64,000 nt of DNA from Achatina immaculata (taxonomy: Eukaryota > Mollusca > Gastropoda > Stylommatophora > Achatinidae): positions 29,992,314-30,056,313 of the forward strand of contig CM019691.1 of assembly GCA_009760885.1 (NCBI GenBank), given 5' to 3'. Shown in pieces: positions 22,638 through 57,287 of the stretch. The translations under genes and the position numbers were made by a program. Each line of letters begins with the position of its first letter. Within the stretch, counting starts at the first letter, position 1. Under the pieces are notes generated by a model. It was not told the DNA's origin. It saw nothing but the letters and a program-made list of their open reading frames with translations, and did no database searches.

Positions 22638-22696
22638 AAGTTGAACGCATAATCAAAGTTAACAACCCAGCGTTCAATGCCCAGTTTGAATATGCA
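22638..22696 (+). CDS. ATP8B: ATP8B-like exon 1 (first secure exon)
   Basis: Begins after a cttccag acceptor and ends at a gtaagt donor; 59 nt, entry phase needs one base from upstream, exit phase 0. Encodes the conserved pre-TM1 stretch [19 protein letters not shown], the class-1 P4 pattern R-x-x-K-x-N-x-x-x-[FY]-N-x-x-F. It has no start codon, so at least one 5' coding exon lies upstream. An antisense LINE-B relic ends about 50 bp before the acceptor. Confidence 0.93.
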
Positions 22697-25600
22697 GTAA
22701 GTAGTGTTTTGTTTTTGTTGTATGGAACAAGTGTTACTCACTGTGACAGTGATAGTGTAAAAAAAAAAAATGTTTACTTTGTTTGTTTAAGAAATTAGGA
22801 ACTATTAACCACTTAAGAAAAATTATGAGTAAAAGTGTATTATCTTTACATTCCGTATTTGTCAATTAAAAAAACAAAACAAAAGAGAGTAGGAGATTAA
22901 GAAGACACTTTGTAATGTAAAAGAATCGAAAATTTATCCATCTTAAAAAATGTCAGCATAAGAAATATTCTCCCACAGAATAACTACATTTCCACATCCA
23001 AGTACAACATTGTTACATTCCTGCCCAAGAATTTGTTTGAGCAGTTCCAGAGGCTGGCCAATGCCTATTTCTTGGGCCTCCTTGTATTGCAGGTAAGATA
23101 TCTTTGTTTTGTTTCCTTTTTTAAAAAAAAACGTCCTTAGTTTATAAAAATTTACAAAAGACATTGAAAATGCAGATAACTGACCATGTAACAGATTGAA
23201 GCACTTGATAAAGACAGTTTCAGAGAAAAATGTTGACAGTGTTAACATACATTTTTTTAACATTTGTTTATGAGTATGACAGCAAATGGAGTAAATATTT
23301 CAGTTGGATAAATCAATGGAAAGTAGTGTAAAACAAACTCTCATATGTTTCATAGACACAAGAATTCAGCAAAAACAGTTGGTTTTTCTTCATGAAGAAT
23401 TCTTGTATAGGTAATCTAGCTAATTTATGTGATCAGTGACAAGAAAAAGTGGTTGCTAATTTAGCCCCTAAAAACTAAGGTGCAAGATTAAATTTCTAAA
23501 TGACACAGGTTTATGGTATCTAGAATTTATCCAAGCCATCTTCGGATATAAAGGAAAACTAGGTTAAATTTTTTTTTATCCAAGCCATCTTCAGATATAA
23601 AGGAAAGTTAGGTTAAACTTTTTATCCAAGCCATCTTCAGATATAAAGGAAGCTAGGTTAAACCTTTGTCTTATTGATAGAAAAATGCTGTCCACTTTGG
23701 CATTTTGTGACCCATTACTAATGTCAGAGTTGGCAAATCATAGCCAACAAAAACCCTGATCCACTCTTCTCTTTAGTAACACCCCCCCCCCCAGTAACAG
23801 ACCTGGATAGCGGGGCAGGAATCATCATAGTCCCCCTGGTGGTGGAGTCTGCTAAAGAAGTATTGCACACCTCTTGCTGTTTAGCTCCAGTCAGAGACTG
23901 AAAGAATGATCACTGTAACTTGCTTTCAGTCTGATGCGATTCTGTACTTCAACACGTTCAGTGTCAACTGCAAAGAACATCAAGCTCAAAGAAGAAGAAG
24001 AAGAAAAGGGTCAATTACCAAAAAAAAAAAAAAAACTTCCTGGTCAGCAATTGTGGGTAAAATCTTGTTTTATTTAGGCATGATGATGCCCCAAGGAGAT
24101 TTCGCTGATGTCTTATGATTCTCACAGGACAGGGTACAAATAGCTGTGGCCTTACAGTCAGATCAAGCATATGAGTTTTGTATCCGCTCCCTTTGGTTAT
24201 ATGAAATGATCGTTTTGTTGTGCTGCAGTTCTTGTGTCCTTTCTTGGTGGTGAAATTCTGTGACTCCATCAACTGCTGATGAGGAAAGTAATGTCCCGTA
24301 CTCTCTGTTGACATGAAGTAACATGGCAGTGGTTCCTGGTCAGCAGATAATGGCCACCAAGACAAAAACAAAACCAGCTTATAGGCAGATCATGGCTTCG
24401 GTTTGCTGAGGCCCTGGTTAGCTTGCCATGTTGCCAGAGCTGTAAAAGCGGGCACAAGATGACACCAGGCCTTGTTAAATCATGCAGGGTCGTGAGATTC
24501 TTAATGAAAGAGCAACAACAAGCCAACGTTTTTCTTCTTTCTTCTCAATATTACACAGCTGTAGGAGTATAGAGTATTACATGGGCATTATTGTGATTGG
24601 TGGAACCCATGTGCTTCTGCAGATTATTGAAGTGTATCATTCTATCAGGCCCAGTGGTGTGTGTGTGTGGGGGAATGGGAGGTGGGGTTGGGTCCAGATG
24701 GTGCATTGTTTTGTGGCCTGGAGGGTTTTCCTTGTTTTAAGGGTGACTTCAGAGGGCTTTGGGTGGTGGGGGGTGGGCTAAAGCAGATGAAAGGAAGGAG
24801 GGAAAGGAGTTCTGCATCAGCTTACAAAATTTCTTTCCGAGACCCTGTATTCTTCTGTTAAGCAGTGTTGTTCAGGACAACAACATTAACTGACTGGAGA
24901 ATTAGTTACAGTTGTCTGTGTGTGAGTGGGTGGAGGGAGGGAAGGAGGGAGGGAAGGAAGGAGGGAGAGAGAGAGAGTGAGTGAGTGAATGAACTGGAAT
25001 ATCAGTCTACTTATGATGATGGATTTGATATTCATGCAAATGTATTTAAGTAGATTAACTTTAAATGCAAGAAATTATATGCCCTATATAGATACTACCT
25101 ATTAAAATAAAAAATATAAAAAAAACTGATTGTAAGCTAAAATGATCCTGTCATAAAATAAGGGAGGGAATTCCATTTAAGAAGTTAATGAGTGAGAATT
25201 TTGTCTCAATTTCCTTTATTAAAAATGAGAATCTGATCAGGTGTAAACTGTCTTCAGAATTTTCAAGACCCAGCATTTGATGTTGTTTGGTACATTAGAC
25301 GCAGTCTTTTTGTTCTCATTCAGTATGTACAGTAATAGAAACTGAGATTTACAGAAACCAGCAAGTCATCATTGTCTTGGGGGGGGGGGGGGGGGGTGCG
25401 GGGTCTTTACATGTTTCCTCAAGTTTTGAAAGGAAAAGGGTGGAGGGGAAGAGAAATTTATAACCGAGATTGTCACAAATCATAATATGTACCGTAGTAG
25501 CGTTAGTCATCAGTCAGTGACTGACAGTACAAGAGCTTTCATTTGAGGTTAGGTTTAAATATGATGGCTGGGTTGACTGTTGAGATGCCCGCAACTCAGT

Positions 25601-28600
25601 AGTCAGTACTGTCCCATTGTGTGTGATGCTTGGTATTTGCAGTTCAGATAGGTCACTTTCCTTGTTCCTTGTTACTAGGATTCAGATGTTTTCCTCTTGA
25701 TGTTCTCCCCCCCCCCCCTTTTTTTAAAGTTTTTTTCAGTGATTGTCAAGTTCTTTAACTTCTATCTTCTCATGACATAAACAAAGAGTGAAGAATTTTG
25801 TTTTTTTGTTTTTGTGTATGCCTTTTCCATAGTTTTAATTGATGTTATACAACTTCTTTATTTGTTTTTATGGCTCCTCTTTGTTTATATTGCATCATTC
25901 TTTCTTGGAGTTTATTTCTTTCTTGTAAAATATATTCCCATTTGGAGTTGAGAGTTCTGCTGTTTTTCTTCAACATGCACAAATAGAATTTATTTCTTTT
26001 TAAATGTGTGTAAAACACATTCAGTGAAATGGTCAGAACTTTGTTCTGTCCTCTAGTGTAGGAATGAACTTTTATTTATTTATTTTTTTAAATTATGAAG
26101 TATTTATTGATTTTGACAACTGGTTTTTTTTTTGGGGGGGGGGGGATATGTTGAGTTGTTGAACTTAATTTATATCATATCCACAGCTGTCATTCCTATT
26201 GTCAAATCTGTTTATTCTGATAATATGTAATATTAATGTCAGATGATCTAACATTGAGCTGTTAAAGTGTTCTCTGCTTTTAGCCATGCAGTGTCCTTAG
26301 TTTTTAGAGAAACTTTGATATTTTAGGTTTTGTGGAAGGATTAAATGTGAGGAATTGGATGATGCGCATGAAGTTATTTGCATTCACGAAATATGCCAGC
26401 TTTATTGTCATTTTTTTTTCCTTTTATTTATCAATGTTTAAAAGTTTGAATCCCTGAAATTTGGAGTGAAATTTTTTTTTTTATTATTTTAAAACTCTGC
26501 CCAGTTGTGATTGTTTTGCACTTTGCCCTCTTTAGAAGCAGGTTTTTGTGGCTCTCCAGTGTTCATCAGACATTGTTACTGAGTATTTATTGGTTTTTCA
26601 AAATTTGGGTTGTAAAATTTTAAGTCCAGTTTTTGTTTTTTAGTAGGAGATACAGAGCTAATGTAAGCTAATGGCCGCCAAGAGACATAGAAAGTTACCA
26701 TGATGTCATTTCCTTAGAAAGAAATAACAGCAATAATAAACACAAGCCAAAAGAGATTTTTTTTTCTTCTTTTTTTTTCCCTTCTGTGTTCGGTAAGCTG
26801 AATTCTTTTAGGGTTGGAACTGCTTCAGTAGTTTGAATGGCACAGTCATCATTTGAGGTCTATGGTATATTCATCAGTAGTTATACTGAGTGGATATTCA
26901 CTGCATAGTGTAGGAGAAGTATTAGTGATATCATCAGGAGAACAACATTTATTCATATGAATCTGTGTATATAGATAATTCAGTTTTGATGAAGGAAAAA
27001 AAAAAAACCCAGATTTGCTGGTATGGACACATTTGGAGGATAGTGTCTGGTAACTTGCAGTTGAAGCATATAATAATGGGATCATAAGATTGAGAGAAGA
27101 AATTGCTGAAAAAGATAAAGATCAAAGGTAAGGAGGTAACAGAAATGTAAGGAAGCTCAACATAACATCTTGCCATTCTTCTGTGCCACTGCTTTTCTTG
27201 GTGAGAGAGTAAGGAGAGAGAGAAAGAAAATATTGAACTAACAACTGCAGATTAAGATAACATTGGGAGAGTAGAGAGTTAATGGAGGGAGTCTGTGTAG
27301 TTCAGTATTTAAAGCAAACACCCGCAAAGCACATGGCTCCAATGTCAGCTCTGATCAGATGCTTCGGATTTCATGAGATTGTATTATTCTTATAAAGATA
27401 TTGTGGACTTTGGATGGTGAGATTGACAGTCCAGCCATTGAAAACTGAAAATATCTTCCTGCAAGATGGTTTACACTAAAGAACTCTGTACACACGGATG
27501 TATTCAAGGAAAAATATGCTATTTATTTTTAAAAATTAGTTCCTTATGTGGAGTTACACTAAATTTTAAAATAGTTGAATGTAGAAATGAAAAATAAAGA
27601 AAAAGCAAGTCACCTAGTATCTTATAATGTTGGAACAGATTAATAGTATGATGATAAAAAGAAGTGCAAGTTTGTAATATTACAGTGACACGCGGAAATA
27701 CGAGTAGTAGCCAAGCATAACAAGAGCAGTATCTTATCACGACTTCTTTGCTCAAAACACAGTTTCTTTCTTTTTGCATATTTTTGTCCATAGTTGGCAG
27801 TCAGGTTATTTATGCAGTCGCTTCTCTGTCTGCCATAGAAATTTCTGACAGGTTGTAAACTGCTGCAAGTGTTAAAAATGCTGAAATGTGGTATTAAAGC
27901 AGGTATTTGAAGGGAATCTCCTCAGTCCTATTTGTTTTTTTTTGTTGTGAAGTGTGTAAGGAGATTCAGAAACAAGATAAAATATGTGACCTAACTAGTG
28001 TTAGTTTACCAGACAAACAGCACCAGATGTTTGGATTTCTATAGCAAGGACTTGTTATCACATGAGATATGCTAATGCAGGGAAAAGGTGAGGAGTCCAG
28101 AAGTTCAAGCTAGACTTTGGTCCCTTTCTTTAATGTTGAATAAATGAGCAGGAGAAACACAAAGCACACACACACTTTAAACATCTGATGATGGAGAGAG
28201 ATCATTGTTCAGTCTCTGCAGTTTTCCTGATTTTATTTTTTTCCCCTCCCCTATATTTGTTTTACATGCACAGCCATGCATGCTTTAGGTCTTAGCTGCT
28301 GTATGATGCACTAACTTTCTTTATTTTTTTTTTTTTATATGTATGTTGCAACAATAGTTGATTCCAGCCGTATCTTCCTTGGAACCACTGGCAACAGTAA
28401 TTCCGTTGGTATTTGTGCTCAGCATATCTGCCATTAAGGAAGCCATAGATGATTTTGTAAGTCCGTCTACACTCACACGGCATATCGCTATTGTTTCTCA
28501 GAGTGGAGCACTTTCTGCATGTGTTCCATGGTGGAGTTTTCCTTGCCATATTGCTAACCCATTTTTCGCAGATATCACGCTAGTACCCATATTATAGCTC

Positions 28601-31600
28601 TACACCCAGTTGCTTTTTTTTTTTATTCCACATCTGTAGTTTAGATTCATGTACTCACACTGTAGGCAATAAATGTGATATAAAAATGATATAGGTGATC
28701 TATATAATGTAGCATTGTTAGAGCATAACAGTAAAGACTATATATAGCAAAGCAGTTTTAGAACAAAATTATATGTAGCCTTTAGAGACTTTATGCATGT
28801 ATGCAGTAAATGTATTATTAAAAATAATATAAACTGTATATAACATAGTGTTGATAGAGCATAATGATATATATTCTAGTAGCATTAGTTGTATACAGTA
28901 TATAGCACAAAGCTTTTAGAATGTAATGCTATGAATTGTATAAAGCTTAACATTTGAGAACAGAAATGCACAACATAACATAACAGTAGAGACAATATAT
29001 AGTTGTGTGCAGTAAATGTGATGTTAAAAATTATATTGATATATAGCATAGCATTATAACATAATATAGACTATATTAGCATTATTAGAACAAAATTTTA
29101 TATATAGAGACTAAAATATAGCGATGTTAGAGTATAGCACTATTGGAACATAACACTATGGACAAAATGATAGCAGTGTAACAAAGTGATAGGGTCTACA
29201 TGTAGCATCTGTGCAGTAAATGTAATATTAAAAATGATATATACCCTATATAACATAGTGTTATTATAACTTGATATAAACTATATATAGCATAACATAA
29301 CAATATGGACTTTATATAGCAGAGTAATATGATATAGACTTGCTATAGCGCACCAGTATTAGAGCAGCCTTTTAATGTCAGATTTATAGAGCAGATAGAA
29401 CATTTACATATAATAAGTAAAAAAGAAAACACTTTTATTTTTAAAAAAAATTAGAAATATGATATGTTTTATATATTTTATATTACTTAAACACCGTTTT
29501 ATATATTTTATATTACTTAAACACTGAGATTACAAAAACCAGTACTGAATACTAAAATAAAATTAAATTTCATACAATGTTATTTTTAGTAAGGTTCTGT
29601 CATGGGATAGTAGTTGGTCTAGAAGAGAGAATTTGTTACTATTGTTTGGTCATGATTGTTTAGAAATTTTTTTTTTTTCCAACAACAAAGAAAAAGATCA
29701 TGGAATGAGTAGAATCATTTGACAAACACAACTAACAGTAACACTAATAGTCTCTTCAAGGTGTGTTATAAACACAGCACATTTGTCAGTCTTGCACTGA
29801 AATTGGCTTGTTGTCATTTCTGCACCTTATTTGGCTCATTCGTATATCTTAACAGGTTTGAAAACAAAACAAACAAAAATGTATCACTTCTTTCATGATG
29901 GTCTGTGCAACAGTAGTAACTCTGTAGTTAAGGCATCTACTCACTGTGTGAAAAGTCTTGGGTTGAAAAGTTACAAGTGGCTGAGATTTTGTGAGCCCCT
30001 GGTAACATTATTGGTGTCAAATTTGTCTCTGGATTGCTTAAACTGGATACCAGCCTATGTAAATGGATGATATCCACTTGAAAGGAAAGCACACAAGAAT
30101 TCATTTTACGGAAGGCTGGAGTGGATTGAGTTTAAATTGATATTCACATAAAAATGTTCGTAAAGCAGGTAATGGAAAAAAAACATTGTTTATGGGGAGT
30201 CCAGATGTTACTGGCTTATTCTTTTATTCTGCTTTCAGGAACCAAATTCGTACATGTATTTACTTGTTTCATGTTTCACATTTGCCAACTCCTTTTGCTA
30301 GAAAAATGGAAAGAAGGGAGGATGTGGTCTCCATAATTACTACTCCTTTATGTATTTCCATCATATATTCTTGGCATTGAGAAATGTTTATTTTTCCACC
30401 ATATATTATGTTTCTAAAATTTTTCTTGTTTTCTGTAGTAGCCATTATTCGAGAGCTTATTTCTTCCAGCTTTGTTTTTTTTTTATAGTACATCTAATAC
30501 ATGCTAGTTTTTTTATAATACAATTACCTTCCTTTTTTTTTTTTTTTCGTTCACCTTGGTCTCCCATATTTAAGTTATATTACCACTGTGCATGTTAAAG
30601 TTTGTAATGGAGCACTGTTTGTTATATCTTGTAATGATCAAAATAACACTCACAGCTTCAGTTTGGTTTTTTTTGCCCCACATTTCATGAACAATGTATT
30701 TTCCTCCATTGGCAGCCAGGATGGTTGAGCAAGTGAACATGGGACGCTATTGTCTGCTGAAGCCCGGGGGTTCCATTTCCAAGAAATTAACAGAGCTGTC
30801 ATATTCTTTTTTTTTTTTTTTTTTAAATATTAATCTATTTATATATGTATTTTTTTTTCCTCTACCCCTCCACCTTTTCGATGGAGTTCAGATGTTGCCG
30901 GTAGTTTCGTCTCTGACACCGTTCACCACACTTATACCTCTTTTGGCCGTGCTAATGCTCTCGGCATTCAAAGATGCGTGTGATGACTATGTGAGTCCCA
31001 CAAGATGGCCACTTGGTGTAACAAAACAGATTTTCTTTGAGCTGCGTTCCTTAATTTTTCTTTCCTTTTTTTTTTTTTTTAGAACTATGGAAAGCATCTA
31101 ATTTTATGCTTTTCCCATTATTCAGTGTTGTTTTAAAGGTTGGGGCATGAACGTTTTGTTTTGTTTTTTTTTAATGGGAGGAGAATCTCCCAGAGCCCCA
31201 TGTTTTGTTGTGTACTAACATCCAGTGTATGACATCTGCATGTCTGGCCTGCAGCATTGTGCTATAATGACAACTAACATACATTGTCAGAGACAAAAAT
31301 TGCCTGGGTAATTACTATTAATAAATTCACATACATAGTTACAGGTCATAAAATGCCATAGATTCAACCCTAAACTTGAAAAATACATGCAATCAGCTAT
31401 TTAAGAATAACACTTTTTTTTCAAACCACATAAATATATGAAGTTTTCTGTTGGACATATTTCTTGGATATGCTTCTGTTAATTGTAGCTGTCAGCACTG
31501 TTGGCTGCAGAAATTCATCTTTTCTGGATTGTTATGTAGAATCCTGTAATTGCTGGTCAGTTTTTACTAAAACAAATTTTAAATGTTAAAGAAGCATAAA

Positions 31601-34600
31601 TTCTCATTTAAACATTGCAGGTCTTTTTTTAATAGCTATTTTAAATAAAAAATATTTTCATTTTACTGAAGATCTTCACTAATTGTTCATAAAGCCAAAA
31701 TGTCTCTAAAACTGGCTTATGAATGTCCTTCAGTAACTGAATAGATTTATAAACAACATGTTTTAAAATACACATGGTAATAGGATTAGGAGTTTTTGGC
31801 TGTCAGCTTTATGTACATCAGTCACGTGTATCATTAACGTTATTGTTTGATCTGCATAAGTTCCTGATCATCATCATCATGTTCTGCAAACACTAACATC
31901 TGCTTCTTAATCTGTGGTTCTGGGAATGCTTGTGGCTTGATAACATGGATCGGATGGCTTGATAATGCGGATTGGATGGCTTACTCTTGCTCACATGAAG
32001 TGTTACTTATTTTGATTCTTTGAAAAAAGTTTTCAATTTATGTTCGGCTACACAAGTTGTTTATTTCAAGTGCCTACAGTGGTGTATAGCAGATGGGAAA
32101 TGTTTACAGTGGTCTTGTTGCCCAGAGTGGATATATGGTTTTATTTGTAGACTCTGGCGGTGTTAGAGCTACATCATTATCACAGCATCAGCCAGACTGA
32201 AGTGGTGAAAAGCCATGCCAGAGATGAGCAAAATGGGGTTGGATCACACTACATGAGAATTCGCAATACTGTTGATGGCAAGACTCCTAGTTGTAAACTT
32301 GCACGTGCAGTGGACTTACGGGGGCTTCGCTGGTAAGCTTCTCTAACAATATTCACAGTTTTTTTAGTTGGTTCTGGACAGAGGATCTGTGCACAGACTG
32401 CCTTCATCCTGGAGTTTTGCAGACCACTTCTTGATACTGTTGAAAGCAGCTGCTGCCTTCTGGAATTCCTCGAAATCGTTGCTGCACTATCACAATGGAC
32501 GAGGTTCTTGCCTATTCCAAAACAAAAAATGACTGCTCACATTTGCTGAATGCCATTTTTGCTACTGCTGCCTCCTTGCGGAAAACCACGGGTGCTCTGC
32601 GTGCAGGGTTTATTTTTTTTTAAAAAAAAAACTTGGAAGAGTTTCTCTCTCTCTCTCTCTTGGCATAAGAATTATGATCCATTACTTAGTTTCTTTGTTG
32701 CGAAGTTTTGAAATGTTTCATGGACTTGTGAATAACCTTGTATATCTGAGGGAAATGAGAGAAAAGGGTCTTAATCTGTATTTATAGAATTGTGCTTGCA
32801 TCAGCAGACAAGCCTTGGCTGGGTTTAATGAGTGAGTATTAGATGACTATGGCTGGTTGCAAACAAGATTTTTCTCTACAGTTTTTCAGACTCTTCATCA
32901 GGTGCTTTAGTAAGTGTATTTTTTTTTAAAGTTCAAGAATGAAAGCAGAAAGTAGACAAGTTAAACTCGTTGATTTAGTTTCTGGACAGGGTAGTGGTAA
33001 CAAGCCTGTGCTTAAGTACAGATTGCATAGTGTATCTGAGGAGGCTGATGCATCCTTGTCTGGGAGGAAAATTGATCTGACACACCTCTTTCTAGAGAAA
33101 ACCATTCAGACAGATCTCTGTCAAGAAGAAAAAAAAAAACTCTTCTGGCACACCTTTTTCTGGAAGAAAATTCATACACATCTCTATCTAGGCGAAGAGT
33201 TGTTCAGGCACATCTCTTTCCAGATAAAACATTCACATCCATATCTAGAAGGTAAACATATTGACAAGTGAAAACTGACAACTCATGGTGCTCTTTTGAC
33301 TCAGGTCATAGTATTGTTTCTACCATAATGAAGCTTCTATCTCCAGTGGTGCTACACTAACGCAGAACCTTTTGTTCTTGGTAAATAGTACCACTCATGT
33401 TTTGTAACATGGATTTGTGTATAAATTTTGATGAAAGTGGTGAAAAAAAAAAGCATCCTTTCATAATGAAAAATGAGTTAGAATTTATGATTAACAAGAG
33501 TTAAATTGATCTTCAGAGACTTTAACATTTGCTAACACTTAACATGTTTTAGAAGTCATCACTGTAGCATATTGGTTACTACTGCATGTCTGTAAAGAAG
33601 TTGCATGTTTTTATTTTACAACTTCCCAGAATAATTTAATCCAGTCAGCCCTTGGCTTTATCTATAGTAAGCATTTTTTGTATTTAAAAAAACAAATCTA
33701 TAGTAAGCATTTTTTGTATTTAAAAACAAAATGTTGTCTTATAATTTTCTTGAATTGTGTTACTTTGGACATTTCCCTATTCATATGTGTTCTTATTTTG
33801 TATAGCATTACATAATACCTAAAGCATATGCCAACTGTAACATTAAGTAATACCCTCAACATTATACAATAATCTACTGTATACATCTACATGTAGAAGA
33901 TACATCTACAGTAGTGTAAAATTTCACATATTATCTGTATTTGGTAGAGGTTATATAATAATGTGCATTTCTGTATTGCTTCACCTACCACATGTTTAAG
34001 GTTTCAGTTCGGCATTTGAGAGTGTGCAAATAATGGAAAAGTGAAATAATTGCAGTTAATAGTTTTTAAAAAAGCAGTACTAATTATTTGTAACAACTGC
34101 AAGGTTTATTTAATTAACCAGTTCACAGAAATTTTTTTTTTTAAAAATAACAATTGCAAGGTTTATTAAATTAACTAATTCACAAGAGTAATTATTTATA
34201 ACAGTAAGTATAATAATATGTCAGTCATAAAATTCATTTACTTATTTCATTGATTATTTATTCATAGCTGCTTGAGTGATGCAGGGGTGTGGATACCTTG
34301 CTAACAGCCAGTTAATTCACTTCACCATTAACAGCGTTATTGTTCTGTTATACATGTTATGATTAACATTCCTTTTATTATTTTTCATCTTCATGACCAT
34401 GTTGTGCTGAATGAGTAGAGGTTTTAACATTTTAGCATGTGTAATATTGTGACTAACACTGTTAATGTTTAATTATATTTTTATTTATTATTTATATATA
34501 ATACTATATTTATTGCATTTCTGCAGTGGTTTTCTTAATTATACAAACCTGCAAGTGAAATGTTACTGTGTTACAAACATTTCATTGTTGTAGTCACAGA

Positions 34601-36706
34601 TTTAATGGTGTAATAATAATGCAGAAGAATCATTAAAACCTGTACAATAATAATAGAGTACAAAAGAGTTGAAGATCACCCAAAACATAATGAATGACCA
34701 CATGTAAAAGAGATCTCTTTAAATGAAGAGAGAATGAATATTAAATTCAAATGAATGTTATTAAAGGCTAGGGAACTAACTGAATGCGTCCCACTCTTAC
34801 TACAAAGAAGTGTCACAGCATTTGAATATCCAGGAGAATTTTCTAGCAACTTAACAACTGTGAGAAAATCGTTCTTGATATCTAGGCATGCTAGAATATG
34901 GAAGTGAGAGTTTATAGAACACTAGATATTCTTTCTCTGCTTGATTTCATAAATAGTATATAGACAAGGAAGGACAAAGGGAAGGCATTGGACTAATAGG
35001 TGGATCTGGGAGAAAAATAGATTTTTTGCAGAGAATAAAGATTGCAACAGGTTTAATGTTGAGATTAGGCAGCAGTACTGGCAGTGTGATCACACAACAT
35101 TCCTAAGTATTAACAAAACAATAGCTGTATATTAATGGATGCTAGATTAGTACTTCAAGTATTACAATATAGTCTGCCAAATCCTTCAGCCTCCTATACA
35201 GACACAGGACCGCAGCACTAGTTGTGGTATCTGATCCCAGCATTGGTGGAAATGAAAAGCAAATTGCCTGGCAGTCTCAGATGCGCTTTACCCACTACAG
35301 GCTACAGTGGCAGAAAATCAATTACTAGATAAACACTACAAAGATTATGGCATAAAGATGGCCTTGGCTTATCAAGAGTTATAACCAGCAACAAGAAGTT
35401 ATTACCAAACAAATTGTGTTATTTAGAATTGATGAATTGGAGCCAAAGATTCGAGTGCTACCTACGTAATAAGCTTAGAGGAAGAAATTACCCAGTTTTC
35501 CAGTTGAGCAAATGGAAATGGCAGCAAGATTTATATTAGCAACTTAGAACCAAAAGAAGTTCCTGCATGTTACCATTTCTAGAATTTGTAGAAAGTAAAT
35601 GAGTGGTTATCACTTATAAATTGGAATAGGAGTGATCTAATTATGTTACTCCAGCCATTTTATGAATCAGCAATATTAAAATATTGTTAGGTTCTGTTTC
35701 TCGTTGGCTCTTCAGTATTCCCTTGCAATCCAGTAATTTGTTTATTCTGTAGTTTTTTTTTTTTTGTTTTCTTTTTAACTAGATTTAAAACAAGAATGAT
35801 TTTTTTTGTAACTTGAGATGCATGAATCATAAATTATTTACTTAATACTGGGTTATGCATGTTAGCTTTCTGTTAATTGCTGTAAGGTTTTCAGCTGAAA
35901 TAAATATTGTGGTTACAATTCTCCTTGAAAACTAGAGTAGACAATGCAGTATAGTACAGGTCTTCATCAGATTATCAGCAGTCGCATTATTAATGTATTA
36001 CAAAGTTTCTCAGATTTTCATTAAATGTTACCTTACGTACATGACCTCGATGCAGACGTATACATGGAATGAATTACCTCCTTTCATAATTTTAAAAGTA
36101 AATAGAACAGAGATCATTTTATTGAACAAAAAGAAATAATGCCAGTGTAATTGTAATGAAGTTCTATGAATTGTTCACTGTTATGGTACCTTTTATTAGA
36201 CAAAAACAAATGATTACAATTTCTTAACAAATAACACTTATGGTTTTTTTTAAAAAAATATTTGCTAGTTTACCTTCCAGTCACATTCTTCTAATCTTAT
36301 TCTTAAATTTATTCCTGCTTTTAATAACCAACACTTTTAATCGGAAACTATAACAAACTTGTTCTGACATTCAAGCTTGCAACACAGTAATCTTTTCATC
36401 AAGTTAAGATTTAATGTATGAGCTTAAGAAGGATCCATTATAAAAGAAATACTCCTTTAATGATGAAATGTTTTTTTTTTTTATTACTGCATGTACTCTA
36501 ACATAGACCACATTGCTCAACAGCAACGACACAGAAGTGACGATCAAGTCAACAATCGGTTATCATATGTTTTACGTAATGGAGAGATTGTGGAGGAAAG
36601 ATGGCACAAGGTCACAGTGGGGGATATCATACTGCTTAAAAACAATGACTATGTCGCAGTGAGTAAATTTTTAAAAAAAAAATGATTTCAGAAATCTTAG
36701 TTACAG

Positions 36707-36737
<31 letters not shown>

Positions 36738-39700
36738 GTTTTTTGTTGTTTTTTGTGACTGTGACAAGTGCTGTTGACTGACTGCGTGAGAAGGAGATTA
36801 TTTCTGTGAACGGAGGCTCTCACCTGGAATCCCCGGGGTGAGAGGAAACAAGGAAGATCTAGGAACACCTGGCTGAGAGGCTAGAAACAGAGATCAAAAA
36901 GATGGACTACACCTGGAGATGGATAGAAGTAGCAGCCCAGGACAGAAATAAACAGAGAGCCCTTGTTGATGGCCTACCCACAGATGGATGTAAAGAAAAC
37001 AAGGAAGGAAGGAAAGAAACATGCTGGATTTGGATTGGTTTTTAAATGGATAAAAGGTCAAAGGTAAAATTCCAGTTTCCATGCCATTAAGGCATATCGG
37101 GCAGTATGGTGTTAGGCCTGTATTTTCCATGACCTTTGGCACATGAAAGTGTGATGTGGTCAGTATCATACCTGGCCGCTTTACCTTCCTAGATTTCTCT
37201 GGTACCCATTTTTAGAGGCTGGGTGAACCCCGGGGTCTTTTTTAGTGTGTACCATAAAAAAATCCCACTGCTGGGACTGAACCTGATACCACCTGATTAG
37301 TAAACCAAGCGCCTAACCACTCAGCTAAACAGGCCACTTTTTAAATGGATGAAACTTCCAAATGTGAAGTGAGTAGTTTCGACACTTGACAGAGGTGTTA
37401 ATGAGTGAATGGTCAATAGATCATGTTGGAGAGATAATGAGGTCATTAATCTCAGTAGTCTGTAGTCAGTGAAGATCTTATTGTCTTCAGAGTTTCAGCT
37501 GAAGAGGCTGTTAGTATGATACACTTTGAAGGTAACAGCGGTCGAGCTTGATGAGGCTTCTTCTACTTCTTAAGAAATAATGAAGAAAGCACTCGCAGGT
37601 CACTCCCCATCTCTTGTGATATCTTTTCATTATGTGCAAGTTTTAAACTACAGCGGAGTTATAGCAGTACATTACATGGCACAAAATTGTGCACAGAAAT
37701 ATACGATAACACAAAATAGTGCACAAATAACAGTAGACAGAGAAGATAATGTACAGTAACAAATATTACAAAACAGTACTCATCAGCATTAGATGGCATA
37801 AAATGCACAATGACATTAGATGGCACAGAATAGTACATGTCAACATTACATGACACAAAGCAGTGCACTAAGTATTTAAGGGGGAAAAAAAAACAAACTA
37901 CACAGCTCTCTTGTGAGAATTAATGTAACAAATTCTCTCAGACAGAGCACCAGGACCTTAAGTTTGTTGTCTTTGCCAATCTTGTGTTCTCAGGCTGACT
38001 TGCTTCTGCTGTCCACAAGTGAGCCCCACAGTTTGTGCTACATCGAAACAGCTGAGCTGGATGGGTAAAATTGAATACTTAAAAACTTTAATTTTGCTTT
38101 TTTTTTCTTTTTTCCCCGTTTCCATGCCTTTAAAGAATATTGGGCTGTATTTCCAGGAGCATTGGCACAAGAAAGTGTGATATGGTCAGTATCACACCTG
38201 GCCGCCTATACCTTCCTAGATTTCTCTGGTTTTAAATGCTTTGTCTTAAACCACAAGTGTCAGAATTGGGTTTATTGAAATTTTAGTAGCATAATGTAAT
38301 CCATTGTTTGCATAAATTTGCTGCTGACACTGATATGTAGAGAATGAGTTTAGAATTTTTCATGACTGGAGAAAGTGTGAGGAGAATGCAGGCAGTTAAG
38401 CAGTTAATAAACTGCCTACTAGGTGTTGCTAGTGTTAAAGCTGGAACAACCAAGTCCAGGACAGCATTTATCCAACTTAACAAAATATGCTCATCTAAGA
38501 ACTTCAAAACAAGAACCAAACTTAGGCTTTTCAATACAAATGTAAAGACTGTCCTGCTATGTGGTTCAGAGACATGGGTTATGACAAAGGCAATACAACA
38601 GAGGATACATTCATGAATTACTTGAGGAGGATTTTAAACATTTTAAATGGCAGGACAAGATCAGGAAACGTATGAGGTCTTGGAAAGGGCAGGACAAGAA
38701 GCTATGAACCTACAAATCATGTCTAGGAAGTGGAGGTGGATTGGCCACACTCTGAGAAAAACCAACACCAACATAGCGAGACAGGCACTGACACGGAATC
38801 CTCAGGGAAATCGAAAACAAGGAAAACCTCGACTTACTTGGAGAAGAGAAATTATGACAGTGCTCAGAGACAAGGGATACACATGGAAGGAAGAAGAGAA
38901 TAATTCCATGAACAGGGATGACTGGAGAGCCTTTATCTGTGGCCTATGCTGTCAAGGGAGCGAAAAGCGATGATGATGATGATGACGACGACGACGACAA
39001 TTTTTTTTTCAGTACATTTATGTGGGTTTCTCATGGCATAAGATGATTGAGACAAAAGTTTTGTCCAACTACAACAACCAGGATCCCCATCATGGGAAAG
39101 GGGGAGGTGTAGATTTTAAAATGGAATTCAAATAGAATGATCATTTTTATTTAGAGCAGCCTTTAAAAAAAATTATTTATTTTGACAAGATTGTTAGATA
39201 AGACTGATACATTTGTCAGATGACCTGTTTTTTGTTGTTTTCTTTTCAGTTTTTATCAATCATATCATAACCAACATAGACAAAAGAGTAAGTGATTGCT
39301 CTGTTTAATCAATAAATTCATTTCCTTGTTCTGTAGTGAGACTAACTTGAAGGTACGCCAGGCCTTGGAGGAAACATCTGAACTAGGAGATGATTTACAG
39401 AAACTGGCACAGTTTGATGGTATGCGTGATTAGCAATCATGTTACTGCTGAGAATATAATGAGCTTACTTCGTGTGTATAGGTTAATTGCCTTGTAACTT
39501 TAACATTGAACGAGTCAGTTTTTAACCCTTTCACTACCAGTGGGACAATACATCCCACTGATAGTTTGAAAAATACCAAGAGACATTTTTTATATTGCAT
39601 TTTATATGACAATAATTAACTTTTCATACACCAACAGAAGATAAGAGGATGAAATCAAAGAAGAATTTTACAACAGATTCTAGATAATATTTTCATCTGA

Positions 39701-40939
39701 TTTGCGCACGTTAACATTGGAAATAGAGATTAATTCAGTGTTATTCCAGTTTACTCATGTTTTTAGTATTGCAATTATGTTTTACAATGGGTGAGGTATA
39801 TTGCAGTGGTATGGGACAAATATGACCCACTGGTATTCTAGTGCACATGGCTGCATTTTTTCCCCCTCTTCTGTTTTAGGATGACCAGAAGACTGATTAT
39901 CTCCAACTTTTAGAAGAGAGCATAACTGTGATTGTCAGCCAGATATGTCATTTTAGATGTTTGTTTTTTTATATGAGGACCACTTTGGCATTTTATATGT
40001 TTGTTTTTTATATGAGGACCACTTTGTCATTTCAGATGTTTGTTTTTGATATGAGGACCACTTTGTCATTTTAGATGTTTGTTTTTTATATGAGGAGCAC
40101 TGTCTCATTTCAGGTGTTTGTTTTTGATATGAGGACCAATTTGTCATTTTAAATGTTTGTTTTTGATATGAGGACCACTTTGTCATTTTAGATGTTTGTT
40201 TTTGATATGAGAACCACTTTGGTCATTTTAGATGTTTGTTTTTGATATGAGGACCACTTTGTCATTTTAGATGTTTGTTTTTGATATGAGGACCAATTTG
40301 TCATTTTAGATGTTTGTTTTTGATATGAGGACCACTTTGGTCATTTTAGATGTTTGTTTTTGATATGAGGACCACTTTGGATATGTTTTTTTTTTCTTTA
40401 CAACACAGCCATCAGGACACATGATCCCACTATAAAATACCAGTGGGATATATATTCCAACATATTATTTCATATCTAATTAGTCTGAAAATTTAAAACT
40501 ATATTTTTTATGATTTTTTCTTGTATGAGGTAGCATTTTATCAAATTTGTAGGAACATTTTTTTTTTCCTCCAGAAATGAGAGAAATGCTGAATTTGATT
40601 TCTTTTTTCCTAACATTCATGAAATTTTTATTTTACTTATCAGCTGAAATTGTGACAGAGCCACCTAACAACAGATTAAGCAAGTTTGAGGGCAAAATGC
40701 AGTGGAAAGACAAAACATTTTCTTTGGACAATGAGAAAATTATGTTGAGGGGGTGTATTTTGCGGAACACCCAGTGGTGCTGCGGACTAGTGGTGTTTGC
40801 TGGCAGAGATACAAAGCTTATGATGAACAGTGGCAAGTCTACCTTCAAGCGGACCAATATAGACCGTTTGATGAATATCCTTATCATTGGTGTGAGTAGG
40901 CAGGAGGCATCCATAGATTTAATAAACCTCTTGTATATC

Positions 40940-40978
<39 letters not shown>

Positions 40979-43900
40979 TTTGTTGTGTTGTTGACTGTCA
41001 TCAATGTATAAGGCCGGATAAACAAATACACAAATTAATTTCCATTTTTTTTAAAAAATTGTCTCCATCTTAGTTTTATGTACTTCACCCCCTTCCTTTT
41101 CACAGATTTGTGCATACTTTTATTTACTTCCTTCTCCAAGATAAGAAACTTTGGTCATTGTAACAAATTTTTTTTTTTTTTTTTTTAGTGGCTGAATAGA
41201 AAGATAACTGAGGTTGAGGGAGTGATCTGTTATCAGATGGTGTGAAGAAAGATTCCATTAAGACCACATCAGAGTTTTTAGCTGTGTTCCTTAGTAGTAG
41301 GTTCACTGGGCTCATTTAGCTTGTCAGATGAGTTTGCAATCAGCATGTTTATAGTGTTTGGTGGAACTTGGCAAGAAGCTTGCTTTATGAATCTTCTCTA
41401 GGAATTCAGGCAAACCACAGAAGTCTAATCCCCATCTAACGTATGTTTATTGCTCGATCACATCCAGGGGGAGGCTGTACAACAAAAACATTTATCCTGG
41501 AGGTTGCTTATTGTACCAGTCTGTCATCGGGTAGAAAATCATTGCAAATGCTCACAGATCTTGGGTGTTTGAGGTTAATGCTTCTTGCCCCAGGCCTGCA
41601 CTGCTGAGAAGGAAAGAAGAGAGAGGCATTTTAAAACATCAAAATACCACTGGCTGTAGAAGTTATTCCCTTTCCTTATATGTCTGGAGATTAAAGGACA
41701 TTTGCATTTGTCTGAACTAGGTAGTTTTTTTCAGTGATGATCCTGGAAGGTGTTTCATGTCTGTTGTTTGAATGTGCTTAGAAGAAGGTAGGAACTCTTT
41801 TTGTTCAGGACTTATGTTTGCTTTAAGGCAGATATAAGAATCAAGAAGAATTTATGTAAATTACCCTCAAGAAGGTTATTAACCATAATCAGTGCACAAA
41901 CTTTTTTTTTTTTTGAAGTTTTTTTTTTTTTCTTAAACAAGCCATAAATGCAAACTAAAGTTTGTATGCTCATCAGCATAAATAAATAAATGTAATATTT
42001 TCTGTTTAGCACAGAGAAGGAAAGCAGTGGCATTTTACCAAAGCTGGCCAAGAACCATTCATATTGCACAGTGAGTTCCTGGCTTCAATTTGGCAAACTG
42101 TATATGTTCCTGGAGGTGGTAGAGCCTGTTTCTTGTGTCCATTACAGAAGTAACAGAGAGCCAATGTAGCATCCCATTCTCTGATTTGATATTTGTGCTT
42201 CAAGATCTTCACTGAGTTTCAAAATCTTCACTAAGATCATACGGTCTCAAGAACTTCACTAAGTTTCAGGATTTTCACTAAGATCATAAGGTTTCAAGAA
42301 CTTCACTGAGTTTCAAGGTTTTCACTAAGATCATAAGGTTTGAAGATCTTCAGTAAGGTGACAGCTACTGAAGTTTCAGTTGTGGTAAGATAACCACCCA
42401 TTTCATTTTAACCCAGTGTTGTTGTATCCTCCACAGATATTCCTTTTCCTTGTGGGAATGTGTCTAATCTGTACAATAGCCTGTGCCATCTGGGAAGTGA
42501 TGACAGGCTATGATTTTCAAGTCTACCTCCCTTGGGAGTCATTTGTTTATGAAGGAAAAGACCGGGGTGCAGTCACAATTGCCGTCCTTGTTTTTCTCTC
42601 TTACATCATCATCTTGAACACTGTAGTGCCTATATCTCTCTATGTCAGGTACTGCAGAGCTTTTTTATTACTAGCAACTTAGTTTTCCATCTAAAGATTA
42701 GAAATTTCAGAGGCCTTTTTATTTTTTTTTCCCCAATTTTAGCCTCAATATGTAGTGCTTAGCTGTTTTTACCATATAGCACTGATACTTATATGTATCA
42801 TGTACATTAGTGTGCATCACTATGCAGTAGGTTTTACATAGTGTTAGATGTTTGGACACTTAACAAAACAGCTGAGAAACACATAAATGCCTTTGAATGT
42901 AAATGCTGCTACAGAAGACTTCTTCAAATACCATGGATACAAAAAAGAAAAAATATATCCATACTATAAGAACTTAATATCGAAGAAGGCTGGCTAGTAA
43001 AGAGGATTAAAGAGAGAAAACTTAAATATTTTGGACACATTAAATGTCATGATAATCTAGAGAAAACTGTCTTGGAAGGGTGCATAATGGGAAAAAGAAA
43101 GAGAGGAAGACCAAGGCGAAAATGGATGCATCAGCAGCAGGCCATCTTGCTCACAATCCTATAGGAGTGCTATTAGGGAGGCAAAGTTCCACAAGGGACA
43201 TGAAAATGAATGAATGGGTAGATGCATTGTCCACAACACAGATGTGGCTGGTTCCAGTTTTTATAGTTAGTTTGACTGGAACTCACTTATATGGGATATC
43301 TACCCCGGTCATTAAGCATGAGGAAGAGATCACTGAGATCTGGTAGCAGTCCAGAATGTTGTGAGGAATCTCTGGAATCTGTTACAAGTTCTTGTGCATT
43401 AACTCTTCCCCTGCCAGTGGGGGAAAAAACACGCGTTGGTGCAAAGCAAAATGTGCTGGTGTTGCGATATTTTTGGGCTATAGTTGAAAAAGTGAATGTA
43501 GCAATTATTTCCATGTGAAAAAATATACTTTTTATACATTCAAAAGAAATAAAAATGAATGAAGATTCCATAAATGCGGAGTTTTCTTAGGAAAAAATAA
43601 CTAGTGAGAAAACAAGACAACATTTTTAGCGCCCCCCCCCCCCCCCCCCCCAAAAAAAAATTTATGACACACAAATAAAATTGGTTTCTACTTACCATTA
43701 GAGCTGTAAATATCCATGTGTAAATCAAAAATCAATGATAAATGGAATTCCTCACATGAAATGTAATCACTTTTTGCACAAATTACAGAAAGAAAAGCAC
43801 AAACACAACAGAAAACATTCAGAAATCCTTTTGCAGATCCACCAAGTGGCTGGAAATTAGGAAAAATATTCACACCAGATCGAACAGAAACTGAAAAAAT

Positions 43901-46900
43901 GGCCACACACTGCCCACGCTAAGTTAAAATGATGCTGGGTAATTCTGACAAATACAGATAACTTGTGAACCAGAATTTGAGTATGGTTTTTCACCGAAAT
44001 GGACCAAACATTAATATAGTGATTTTGGTCCAGAAGTGAAATAACCGGAAGGCCGCACTATAATGCTGTCAGCTTGGGAAGAGTTAAGATATTAAATTAT
44101 TGAAGTTTGAAACAGTAAGTTTTGAGTGACAACACCATTTGTAAGTTTAGCTTCTCATTTCATGTTGAACGAGTTGTGAAGTATATAACTTCTTTTGCAT
44201 ATATATTTACAGCTCTAATGGTATATAAGTTTGATATTTGTGTGTTTTATGAGATTTAAGTTGTTTGTGATGATACAGTTTTGAAACGTTGTTCTTACAC
44301 ATCTCTGTCTGTGGTTTTGAATAAATTTAATTATTATTTACAGTTTCTGTATAATTTAGCACAGCTTAACTTTTTTTTTTTTGTTTAGATATTTCACTAA
44401 GTCAGTGGAGCCTGACAGTGGAGGAGAGAAGAAACACTTTATCTAACCATCTAGTAAAATTGGCATTGATGTCCTTCTCATGACAGATTTATTGACTGAG
44501 AATCAAATGTCTTTTCTTTCCCCAGTGTTGAAATTATCCGTCTTGCACATAGCCTTTGGATAAACTGGGATGTCAAAATGTACTATGACAAAAAGGACAC
44601 CCCGGCAAAAGCACGCACAACCACACTAAATGAGGAGCTGGGGCAGATAGAGTATATATTCTCGGACAAAACAGGAACATTAACTCAGGTGTGGTTGCTG
44701 TCTGTCTGCTCTCCCTTAGAGGGGAGGGGTGTGTTTACAGATAATGCACTGTTGCTAGAAGGCTGGGGAAAGACCCAGCTTATTTAAGTACATGTGCAAA
44801 TTTATAGGCAGTTTAATTTTCTGATTAAGGTTTTCACACTTTGATGTTGGAAATTAATTAAAACAGATTAGAATTAAGATTTAATAGGAATTTCAGACAA
44901 AACAAAAAGTGACTATTGTAGAGACTTAACATTTCAACCTTAGGGTCTTCATCTGGGAAGAAATGATACACACCAAGTGATATCACCTTAAAGTTCACAA
45001 AATGATGACTTGAACAAAATGGTCATACTATCTTACTGAGTATTTTAGTTCAGTAAAAAGTTCAGGACTCATTTTTCTCTCTCTCTCTCTGAACCTTAAG
45101 TGCCCAGGGCACATGGGGCTTCCACAAGGGTTTTCCACAAATGCCTGTCCTTCGCATTTTTTTCTGCTCTTGCCCAGGTGAGCCCTCTATTGCTCAACAT
45201 CCTTTCTGTTGTTCTTCTCCATGTCTCTTTTGGTCTACCCTTACTTCTGTTCCCCTGTGGTGTCCATCTTAGTGGTATTTTTGGTAGTGAGTTGTCAGTC
45301 ATTCGGAGCACATGTCCCAACCATCGCCAGCGTCTTTCCTCAATAATTGTTGTCAGTGGCTTCATCTGCATTTCTGCCAACAAGATGTTATTTCAGGACT
45401 CATTTTTAACCTGATGAACAGGTTATTAGTTATTGGTTTAAATTTTGAATTATTTTTTTTTTTCTTTTCATCAAAACTCCATCTTACTTTATGTTTAAAT
45501 TTTTTTTTTTTCCATTCAGCATCTCAGTTTTGTTGATGTTGTTCATCGTACCTATTTCGTATAAATTGAGGTTATTTTTTTTTTTAAAGAAGGTTCTGAT
45601 TAACTTTTGTGTCATATATAACCTACAGAACATCATGACCTTCAACAAGTGTTCAATAAATGGGAGATCATATGGTGACCCTGTGGACGCTGATGGGAAT
45701 CCTATAGAAGCAACGGAGGTTAGAGGATGAGATTTATCTCAGTTTTTTTTTTTTCAGAAACCTTACTTCCCACTGTCTGATTTTTAGCCTTAATTAGATA
45801 TCTAGATTATCAACAGTGTTTTTCTTATATACTGCATGCTGTGTTTTTGAAGAAGTGGTGGGGGGGGGGGTTTGAATCACCCAGCTGTAGAAGTGGATGG
45901 GGGGGGGGGTGTTGAGTCACCCAGCTGTAGAAGTTGGGGGGGGGGGTTGAGTCACCCAGCTGTAGAAGTTGGGGGGGGGGGTGGTGTTGAGCCACCCAGC
46001 TGTAGAAGTTGGGGGGGGGGGTTGAGTCACCCAGCTGTAAAAGTGGGGGGGGGGGGGTGGAGGAGTCACCCAGCTGTAGAAGTGGGGGGGGGGGTTTTTG
46101 AATCACCCAGCTGTAGAAGTTGGGTGGGGGGTTTGAGTCACCCAGCTGTAGAAGTTGGGGGGGGGGGTGTTGAGCCACCCAGCTGTAGAAGTTTGGGGGG
46201 GGGGGGTTGAGTCACCCAGCTGTAGAAGTGGCTACCTGGCTTTTTCTGGAGAGAGAAAGGTGGCCAGGCATGATGCTGACCACATCAATCTCTAGTGTGC
46301 CCTCAGGTCAAAGAAAGTATTGACACTAAGGCATAACAGGGTTGCTTTTACCTTCACCTTTTTTTTACTACGTTTGTGCATATGTTTTATGCTTCTGTGA
46401 TAATCTGGTATAACATTCCTAATAAATGTATGAAGAAAAGTTTTTAGCATTGAATACTGAAGATAAATTTACATACAGTAATGCACTGATTTGCAGAAGA
46501 GTGTTTATGTATACAGAGATGGTGAACAATATGTTACAGATTAAAATTATATTTTAAGGTGGTAAATGCAATTTGTTTATATGCACTGGCTGAGGACTAC
46601 GTTATTGATGAATAGGAAAATGAAAGGACAGGTTGAAAATGATTTGATTATCCATTTGACAGACTCCTGTTTGCTCATTTCTTTGTTTTCTGGGAAATTA
46701 ATTATATTCGCATGTTGCAGTGTTATGTGGAATTAAAATTAGTTATATTCACACGTTGCAGTGTTATGTGGAATTAAAATTAGTTATATTCACATGTTGC
46801 AGTGTTATGTGGAATTAAAATTAGTTATATTCATGTTATTATGTTACACTGAGTTAATGAATTTTTTGATAAAATAACACCATGCAAATGTGTTATAGGT

Positions 46901-55900: not shown

Positions 55901-57287
55901 AAAAAAAAAAAAAATTCAGTTTTACTGTGATCATTTTGGCAGTGGAAACTGAATAGTGGAATCATTGTTGTCATGGATTCTCATATTTTGACTGAAGGTT
56001 GTGGTAGTGATGGTGATGGTAGTTTAGGATAGGTCATTTGTGGAAAACAGCTTCAGCAGTGTATTCTTAGAGTTGGTAACACTGAAAATTTGGGATTCGT
56101 TTATAGTTAATTTGACACTTCAAATTACAAGTACTAATTCTTTGCTTATTTATGGAAATTACAAGTAATCATTCAGGCATGGATAGGGAATTACTTGTTT
56201 TGTTTTTTTTTTTTACTTTTTTTTTGTGTGTGTCATTTATTGTTTTCTGTTACTTCTGTTATTATTGTTGAGTTTTACAGTAATTATAATTCCATATGTT
56301 TTGTGTTACTTCTATTATTATTATAGGTAGTTTTAGTATAATATCATTATATCCTTCTTCACTTCCCATTCATGTAACCACTGATATATGTCATAACAAG
56401 AGTGCAGAAGGGAAATTTGACCACTACTGAAAGATTCAAGGGGAAAAAAAAAATAAAAGAGAATGACCACATCTTTGTTCTTTCACATATGATTTTGGCC
56501 CTCTTGTTTCCAGAAATATGGTGTTTCTAGAGAACAGTTCCTTTACTTGGAATGCCAAGAGCTACAGTTGTTTTCTGAAACTGCAGTATTGTACAGTATA
56601 TTCCATTGTCATTTCTTGTTCACAGTAGATCAGGTTGGACCATTTCTTATTTTTTAAAAATTTATTATATAGGTGGTTTCTTGGTCTGTGGCATCATGTT
56701 CTTAGTCTGAATAAGATTATTTGTTGTGCAAGGAGATTGAGGGAGGAACACTAGCACAGTCTGGTCAGATGGCATGGGGAAATGGAAGCAGTGGACTTCA
56801 TTAATGTCACCAAAATCTGTATGGCCTGCTTCTGTGTGCCTGCATTGGCTTCTTAAAGGTGATGACCAAGAAGTTATGTGAAGCTAAAGAATAATACTGC
56901 AGCATTGCTATGTTGTATATGATGTTATCACTTATTTGATAACAGACATGAAACTGTTGAGCTTTAGTAGGCACGGTTAGCTGTTGATGAAATAAATGCT
57001 GTTTTATCAAATCCTGTACACCTTATCCTGTAGGTCATTGTCAAGAAGGATGGCAAGATCCAGCTGCTGTGTAAGGGTGCTGACACAATTATGTTTGGAC
57101 TTCTGGACAGCAAGTGTGATGAACTGAAGGAACTGACTACACATCATCTGAATGTTAGTTCCTTTCCTTTAGTTAGTTACCTTTCTTAAGAATATTTATG
57201 AGATGATGTTTAAACTTTGGAAAGACTTGTTTTTCTAGTATTGTTCTCTGTTTCTTCTGTTATTTCTTATGCAGTTTTTGTGTGTAT

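Follow-up and report, generated by a model that had tools for sequence, protein, structure and literature searches.

A tandem-duplicated exon for the TM1-TM2 hairpin of a land-snail ATP8B-class P4-ATPase gene, with likely mutually exclusive use of its two copies

How flippases choose their lipids is an open question that has mostly been approached by point mutants. In the accessible parts of the articles concerned, the headgroup cavity of ATP8B1 is described as built by transmembrane helices 1 and 2 (TM1 and TM2) and as unusually wide (PMC10657443), T143 in M2 of ATP8B1 is named as a lipid headgroup anchor (PMC11225554), Dnf1 D258 is listed at the cytosolic exit site (PMC7773333), and a single TM1 residue of ATP11C alters lipid choice (PMC12723151). 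Tandem duplicated exons are documented for the PMCA calcium pumps, which are among the events common to vertebrates, arthropods and nematodes according to the available text of PMC9741552, and the main text of that article, as far as accessible, contains no mention of ATP8, ATP10, ATP11 or flippase. Here we describe an ATP8B-class P4-ATPase gene of the snail Achatina immaculata, located in a stretch of 64,000 nucleotides (nt) (C1:29992314-30056313 of a 1.65-Gb assembly, hereafter the window; bases 3′ of the window were added to complete the gene model). Two copies are present of the exon that, by homology, encodes the last part of TM1, the exoplasmic loop and TM2. The explanation that we favour, and that as a whole we hold to be quite probable, is that this exon was duplicated in tandem long ago in a gastropod ATP8B-class gene, that the mature mRNA would include one and only one of the two copies (exons 3a and 3b), and that the two resulting flippases, differing in the hairpin alone, would differ in the lipids bound or in the ease with which the entry gate closes.

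An earlier note on this DNA had proposed two open 99-nt exons, both in phase 0 to 0, encoding versions of the same 33-residue segment between exon 2 and exon 4. Both exons, their placement and the identity of 18 of the 33 residues were recovered as described, with the following features (positions in the window):

22979 to 23092, + strand: exon 2 (E2), lead-in and first half of TM1, ending LLVLQ; the last codon, a Gln common to both isoforms, aligns with ATP8B1 Q131.
28358 to 28456, + strand: exon 3a, first alternative, with the TM1 end, loop and TM2; Ala at the ATP8B1-T143 position and Glu at the Dnf1-D258 position.
28457 to 30891, + strand: intron separating 3a and 3b, 2435 nt.
30860 to 30878, + strand: pyrimidine tract belonging to the 3b acceptor; its 19 nt are complementary to positions 25435-25453, within intron 2.
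30892 to 30990, + strand: exon 3b, second alternative for the same segment; Thr at the T143 position and Asp at the D258 position.
36524 to 36658, + strand: exon 4 (E4), starting QRHRSDD, start of the A-domain part, common to both isoforms.

The splice sites had been called good; AG does stand before each exon and GTAAGT or GTGAGT after it, but their strength is acceptable rather than strong. A matrix made from the gene itself (23 acceptors and 22 donors) rates the 3a acceptor as weak, at rank 22 of 23, and gives middling ranks to the 3b acceptor (15 of 23) and to the donors of 3a and 3b (15 and 12 of 22).

The case for a duplicated exon is carried by similarity and constraint, since openness alone means little: 24 of the 143 AG-99-GT stretches found in the gene's other introns are open by chance. 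The observed BLOSUM score between 3a and 3b was reached by none of 200,000 shuffles of one peptide, the best shuffle giving 12 identities. A homologue profile scored 3a and 3b at 88.9 and 79.3 bits over about 247,000 six-frame positions (123.7 kilobases, kb), in which the next best score was -13.3 and no close third copy of the exon appeared. This profile was built from 120 segments of 122 homologues, with three double models split in two, the plant match P0124 included, and P0013 (a 46-residue segment) and the unmappable P0022, P0024, P0035 and P0064 left out. By codon position, 20, 27 and 7 of the 33 nucleotides are identical between the two exons, which points to old coding duplicates changed mainly at silent sites. 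As is looked for in mutually exclusive tandem-duplicated exons, the two are thus adjacent, homologous and of equal length and phase.

The pair is also present in a paralogue on C5 (C5:73683243-73766324), where the order of the two exons (3a′ and 3b′) is unchanged and each of their four splice sites is intact. Between C1 and C5, exon 3a shows 5.5 nonsynonymous changes over 72.3 sites and 19.5 synonymous changes over 26.7 sites, and exon 3b shows 1 over 73.2 and 18 over 25.8, that is, nonsynonymous to synonymous ratios of about 0.03 (3a) and 0.01 (3b), which are only rough because synonymous sites are near saturation. In this comparison both copies behave as coding and constrained exons, and relaxed constraint on one of them, which the earlier note had named beforehand as speaking against its proposal, is seen in neither. 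The introns of the interval between exon 2 and exon 4 can be aligned between C1 and C5 at short exon flanks only. Note that 3b′ is one residue off the C1 copy of 3b, and that most other exons compared between C1 and C5 show more difference. The C5 protein clusters with Bradybaena (98/97), so the gene duplication is older than that split, which suits a genome duplication that has been reported in land snails. When the 3a peptide was compared with the whole genome, five places were found, namely the four exon-3 copies of C1 and C5 and an ATP8A-like gene on C20. The latter served as the only control P4-ATPase (the genes on C4, C12, C18 and C24 were left out) and contains, in the 3.1 kb examined, one exon copy with the same boundaries.

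The low rank of the 3a acceptor would agree with one of the two being a dying or unused exon copy, but both copies are intact, with little protein change between C1 and C5 despite the near-saturated synonymous sites, and each has close counterparts in other snails (3a is identical at 31 of 33 residues to Aplysia and Biomphalaria, 3b at 27 of 33 to Physella and Lymnaea); we therefore regard a dying copy as very improbable. By these comparisons, the exon pair is old and under strong purifying selection, and its tandem duplication would be ancient.

Mutually exclusive splicing, as proposed in the earlier note, appears very likely from the identity of two Littorina isoforms outside the segment, the conservation of the pair in the C5 paralogue and the mixing of the two types on the protein tree. 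The Littorina saxatilis isoform records X1 (3b type) and X2 (3a type) are 1256 amino acids long each, and their 15 residue differences all lie inside the segment; as database models, they fit transcripts carrying one copy or the other. More generally, 114 of the 118 proteins with a mappable segment have one 33-residue copy, and three models contain both types in tandem, namely a third Littorina model (P0016, in the order 3a-3b), Pinctada (P0025) and Argonauta (P0045, named isoform X1). These three models, as well as a reading frame that stays open, are what would be expected if both exons were normally included to give a longer protein with an extra helix. However, the prevalence of single copies and the presence of both single-copy isoforms in Littorina speak against it, and so does the count of hydrophobic peaks in the region, which is two in each of isoforms A and B, three when both exons are in and none when both are out: three helices instead of two would presumably invert the topology before the A domain. 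We attach hardly any weight to regular joint inclusion. The peak count also bears out the prediction that using both exons adds a TM helix in frame, all four splice forms being in frame. Since inclusion of exactly one copy is what should give a normal pump, and since errors stay in frame with no stop to clear the wrong forms, the choice must be controlled, in line with the active control that the earlier note had called for.

Across molluscs, the 3a type is found in proteins of Bradybaena, Biomphalaria, Aplysia, Elysia, Plakobranchus, Candidula and Pomacea, and the 3b type in those of Physella, Lymnaea, Haliotis, Patella, Lottia and Gigantopelta. Bivalves that are near relatives (Crassostrea with Ostrea and Saccostrea, Mercenaria with its neighbour) show both a 'P-W/F/Y-Y-T/S-T' and a 'TPLTT' type among them. 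The bivalve first-type proteins P0026, P0030, P0031, P0037, P0040 and P0043 come from records whose longest contigs measure 4.2-6.9 kb, so these six look like assembled transcripts; no such short-contig record with the bivalve second type is present among the molluscan rows listed. The trees rest on 44 of 120 proteins, of which 37 are molluscan rows (from a total of 43) and 7 are outgroups, the 46-residue Pomacea segment being trimmed to its first 33 residues. On the molluscan protein tree, the two exon types stand side by side in close relatives, and the tree of the rest of the protein implies at least 9 changes between first and second type, for instance between Lymnaea and Biomphalaria. The simplest reading would be that both exons exist in many of these genomes, each record showing one of them, and that the first copy was perhaps lost from some lineages or never present in them. 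Of two ATP8B genes of Babylonia areolata that are 79% identical (P0020 and P0021), one is listed with a 3a-type and the other with a 3b-type exon, a split that could reflect exon loss after gene duplication or merely the choice of model. In Pomacea, isoform X3 (P0013) has 13 extra residues between its 3a-type segment and exon 4, which may stem from an annotation error or represent an additional splice form.

The exon-3 tree has little resolution (4 of its 43 inner branches are starred), and its groups mostly follow type: query 3b falls with Physella and Lymnaea (100/100), and separate groups hold the gastropod 3a rows (90/83) and the bivalve first type (96/86). The gastropod 3a and bivalve first types are apart in the best tree, the first copies are of unlike kinds (gastropods have E/N/S/A-P-x-A-T, bivalves P-W/F/Y-Y-T/S-T and Argonauta S-P-I-F-T), and no 3a type was observed among patellogastropods and vetigastropods, all of which would suit separate origins of the gastropod, bivalve and cephalopod pairs rather than a single molluscan one. 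On the other side, the same exon is concerned in every case, the TP-type copy is second in all three tandem models, and a single clade of all first copies, absent from the best tree, is not rejected (p-AU 0.38). We hold separate origins to be a serious alternative, though somewhat less likely than not.

Regarding how one exon might be chosen, the intron between the alternatives measures 2435 nt in C1 and 4163 nt in C5 and its sites are of the common GT/AG kind; a length of 2435 nt is too long for simple steric exclusion (crowding) to apply. The 3a acceptor is preceded by 62 nt free of AG, with a pyrimidine tract set back from the AG, and the C5 copy looks similar by eye. Together with its weakness, this long AG-free stretch and set-back tract suggest that 3a would be the regulated choice. 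At the 3b′ acceptor region of C5 (C5:73698057-73698116), short CTGACCAAC-like repeats stand in place of a T-rich tract, and both this acceptor and its C1 counterpart contain GAGTTCAG, with an AG 5 nt before the splice site.

Pairing between introns was considered as well. An inverted-repeat search run without control gave 235 inverted pairs, the 25 longest of which are mostly A/T-rich or homopolymer-driven with a few mixed ones (e.g., 23695-23720 with 31336-31361), and a separate scored search of three intron pairs was compared with shuffles. In the latter, the 19-nt pairing of 25435-25453 with 30860-30878 had a score reached by 1 of 150 shuffles of that intron pair. It would possibly loop out 3a or mask the 3b acceptor, and we treat it as a lead only, as no comparable pairing joins C5 intron 2 to the C5 3b acceptor and it may be due to chance or specific to the C1 gene. 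The best pairing of introns 2 and 4 consisted of a simple GA/TC repeat, with a score that none of 15 shuffles matched, and that of introns 3 and 4 was within chance (5 of 15 shuffles); both were set aside. In C5, a near-perfect 68-nt inverted repeat (73694994-73695061 and 73706700-73706767) lies in introns 3 and 4 and flanks 3b′; it perhaps represents two copies of a mobile element, and could pair in the pre-mRNA around 3b′. Finally, TGCATG occurs 11 times in the interval 28277-36488 of the window, roughly double the expectation (a count reached by 2 of 200 shuffles). Its sites include those 81 nt upstream of 3a, 60 nt downstream of 3a and 247 nt downstream of 3b, and three lie within 300 nt of the exons (P 0.016, random windows). 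As this hexamer ranks only 64 of the 623 compared, it was dropped as a splicing-factor signal.

With regard to the residues exchanged by the swap, the segment aligns without gaps on ATP8B1 132-164, and the stretches of Dnf1 are of equal length, which places residue 1 at A231 of the GA motif and residue 28 at D258. The T143 position holds Ala in all 10 gastropod 3a rows and Thr in all 11 gastropod 3b rows, while T144 is present in both exons. Over the 120 segments, Thr is found here 100 times, Ala 12 (the 10 gastropod 3a rows and two mites), Ser 6 (the bivalve first type), and Phe and Val once each (the first copy of Argonauta and the plant, respectively). One more of the fixed changes falls on a named site: at the D258 position, equivalent to the D159 position at the cytosolic end of TM2, 3b has Asp and 3a has Glu. 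Where Dnf1 has its gate residues L247 and I250, both exons encode Leu and Val. In these gastropod rows (counted without P0010, P0016, P0018, P0123 and the partial Nucella P0024), 7 of the 33 positions share no residue between the types; adding Nucella P0024 (3b type) breaks positions 19 and 30 and leaves five (2, 4, 9, 12 and 28), which still include the T143 and D258 positions.

An effect of the swap on lipid handling is likely, because it hits the headgroup-anchor Thr, because TM1 and TM2 form the cavity and because one residue of ATP11C alters lipid choice; its direction is not predictable from sequence. In this scheme 3b would be the canonical form, with T143 and T144 kept, and 3a the altered one. 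Given that the M2 Thr, the headgroup anchor of the outward-open state, is missing from 3a, and that 3a carries Glu instead of Asp at the exit site, we infer a difference in the lipids bound or in the ease of closing the entry gate, and with it a changed lipid preference. Exclusive splicing could also be real with the swap tuning another property, such as turnover rate, coupling between A domain and gate, autoinhibition or CDC50 pairing, given that TM1-TM2 is, in the accessible text of PMC7773333, a moving part that transmits A-domain motion to the transport path, and that the differences include the cytosolic end of TM2 (Asp/Glu at the D159 position). We find this rather unlikely, since so few positions are fixed-different and one of them is the named headgroup anchor.

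Several observations weigh against our explanation of one-of-two splicing with different lipid handling. Neither inclusion of both exons nor omission of both shifts the reading frame, which therefore does not impose exclusivity, and the three models carrying both copies leave strict exclusivity unproven. Among the records, Patella, Lottia, three Haliotis and Gigantopelta show the 3b type only. When type mixing was assessed on the protein tree (39 of 45 prepared rows), four labels required 13 changes against a shuffled mean of 19.1, and 0 of 200 shuffles were that low; the types are therefore less mixed than random labels, and record choice or real exon loss was not random. The two mite rows with Ala at the T143 position are one-copy models, and a literature search for Thr-to-Ala at this M2 position returned structures and statements, with no measurement among them.

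The gene itself is intact on the + strand; the first exon located (E1) starts at 22638, and the stop codon lies past the end of the window, at window-equivalent 74398. Its model has 23 exons, with AG 5′ of each, GT 3′ of all except the last and no internal stops, and the spliced protein has 1234 amino acids counted from the first exon located; no start-codon exon or further 5′ exon was located upstream of E1. Isoform A matches TIGR01652 at 1264.8 bits (cut-off 431.25) over profile positions 1-1057 of 1058, and DKTGTLT, DGET, PISL and GDGANDVSMI are all in the spliced protein; among these P4-ATPase motifs, DKTGTLT is the phosphorylation site and PISL lies in TM4. For the part from TM1 to the A domain, the best 4 of the 20 matched PDB sequences are named 'Phospholipid-transporting ATPase IC', which we take to be ATP8B1, and the database neighbours of the protein carry the name ATPase ID. 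Its closest database proteins belong to snails (Bradybaena 83%, Physella 85%, Lymnaea 85%, Biomphalaria 83% and Aplysia 84%), which agrees with a gastropod, probably stylommatophoran, genome. From these best structure matches and neighbour names, the gene is classed as a gastropod ATP8B-class P4-ATPase, a predicted lipid flippase. The remaining exons in the window are:

22638 to 22696, + strand: E1, N-terminal, followed by GTAAGT.
37994-38064, 39337-39419 and 40644-40891, + strand: E5-E7, A domain, with DGET across E5/E6.
42437-42648 and 44526-44688, + strand: E8-E9, TM3-TM4 with PISL, and the DKTGTLT phosphorylation site.
45629-45718, 49244-49409, 54942-55021 and 55727-55828, + strand: E10-E13, N and P domains (with E14-E17).
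57034-57153, 57523-57620, 61287-61465 and 63172-63455, + strand: E14-E17, N and P domains (with E10-E13).

The introns of this part contain pieces of a non-LTR (non-long terminal repeat) retrotransposon with endonuclease and reverse transcriptase domains (50346-53435, + strand, between E11 and E12) and, between E15 and E16, a reverse transcriptase domain on the opposite strand (60436-61245, - strand).

The furthest-reaching version of our explanation is a splice-controlled lipid-selectivity switch, in which, since early mollusc evolution, the gene would have retained a pair of substrate-site hairpins that can stand in for each other, the canonical one and another whose conserved headgroup-anchoring Thr is replaced, so that one splice choice would retune the lipids with expression, catalysis and targeting unchanged. 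We put it forward tentatively, as a claim that falls a little short of an even call. If it is true, membrane lipid asymmetry could be regulated via alternative splicing of the substrate site of a pump. In addition, paired natural hairpins with few fixed differences, maintained by selection in both paralogues and having relatives in three classes of molluscs, would offer a direct test of which TM1/TM2 residues govern lipid preference.

Mutually exclusive exons and ATP8B flippases are each known; what is new, within the reach of the literature search, is to find the two together at the lipid-binding hairpin: in the open-licence literature no title or opening of an abstract points to alternative exons in a flippase TM1/TM2, which is weak evidence of absence and agrees with the earlier note, which knew of no described flippase with this arrangement. 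Compared with the class-1 P4-ATPases ATP8B1 and ATP8B2, the gene shares the whole-length family match, the four motifs and the best PDB match to ATP8B1, but has two versions of the TM1/TM2 exon, none being described for them in the accessible portions of the literature examined. The PMCA calcium pumps are likewise P-type ATPases with a tandem duplicated exon used alternatively (PMC9741552, accessible text), although they form a separate branch and transport calcium, while lipid transport is predicted here. In OGDH, one of the tandem exons 4a and 4b is used, with AG-free zones and set-back pyrimidine tracts as seen in our gene; however, according to the available text, its branch points are crowded against the upstream donor (PMC7969005), a mechanism not directly applicable to an intron of 2.4 kb. 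Finally, in the accessible part of PMC12723151, ATP11C Q79E and ATP11A Q84E alter lipid choice through a single residue in the same TM1/TM2 entry pocket, as proposed here, but these are point mutants, whereas the snail gene has a built-in exon choice, with that Gln located in the common exon 2.

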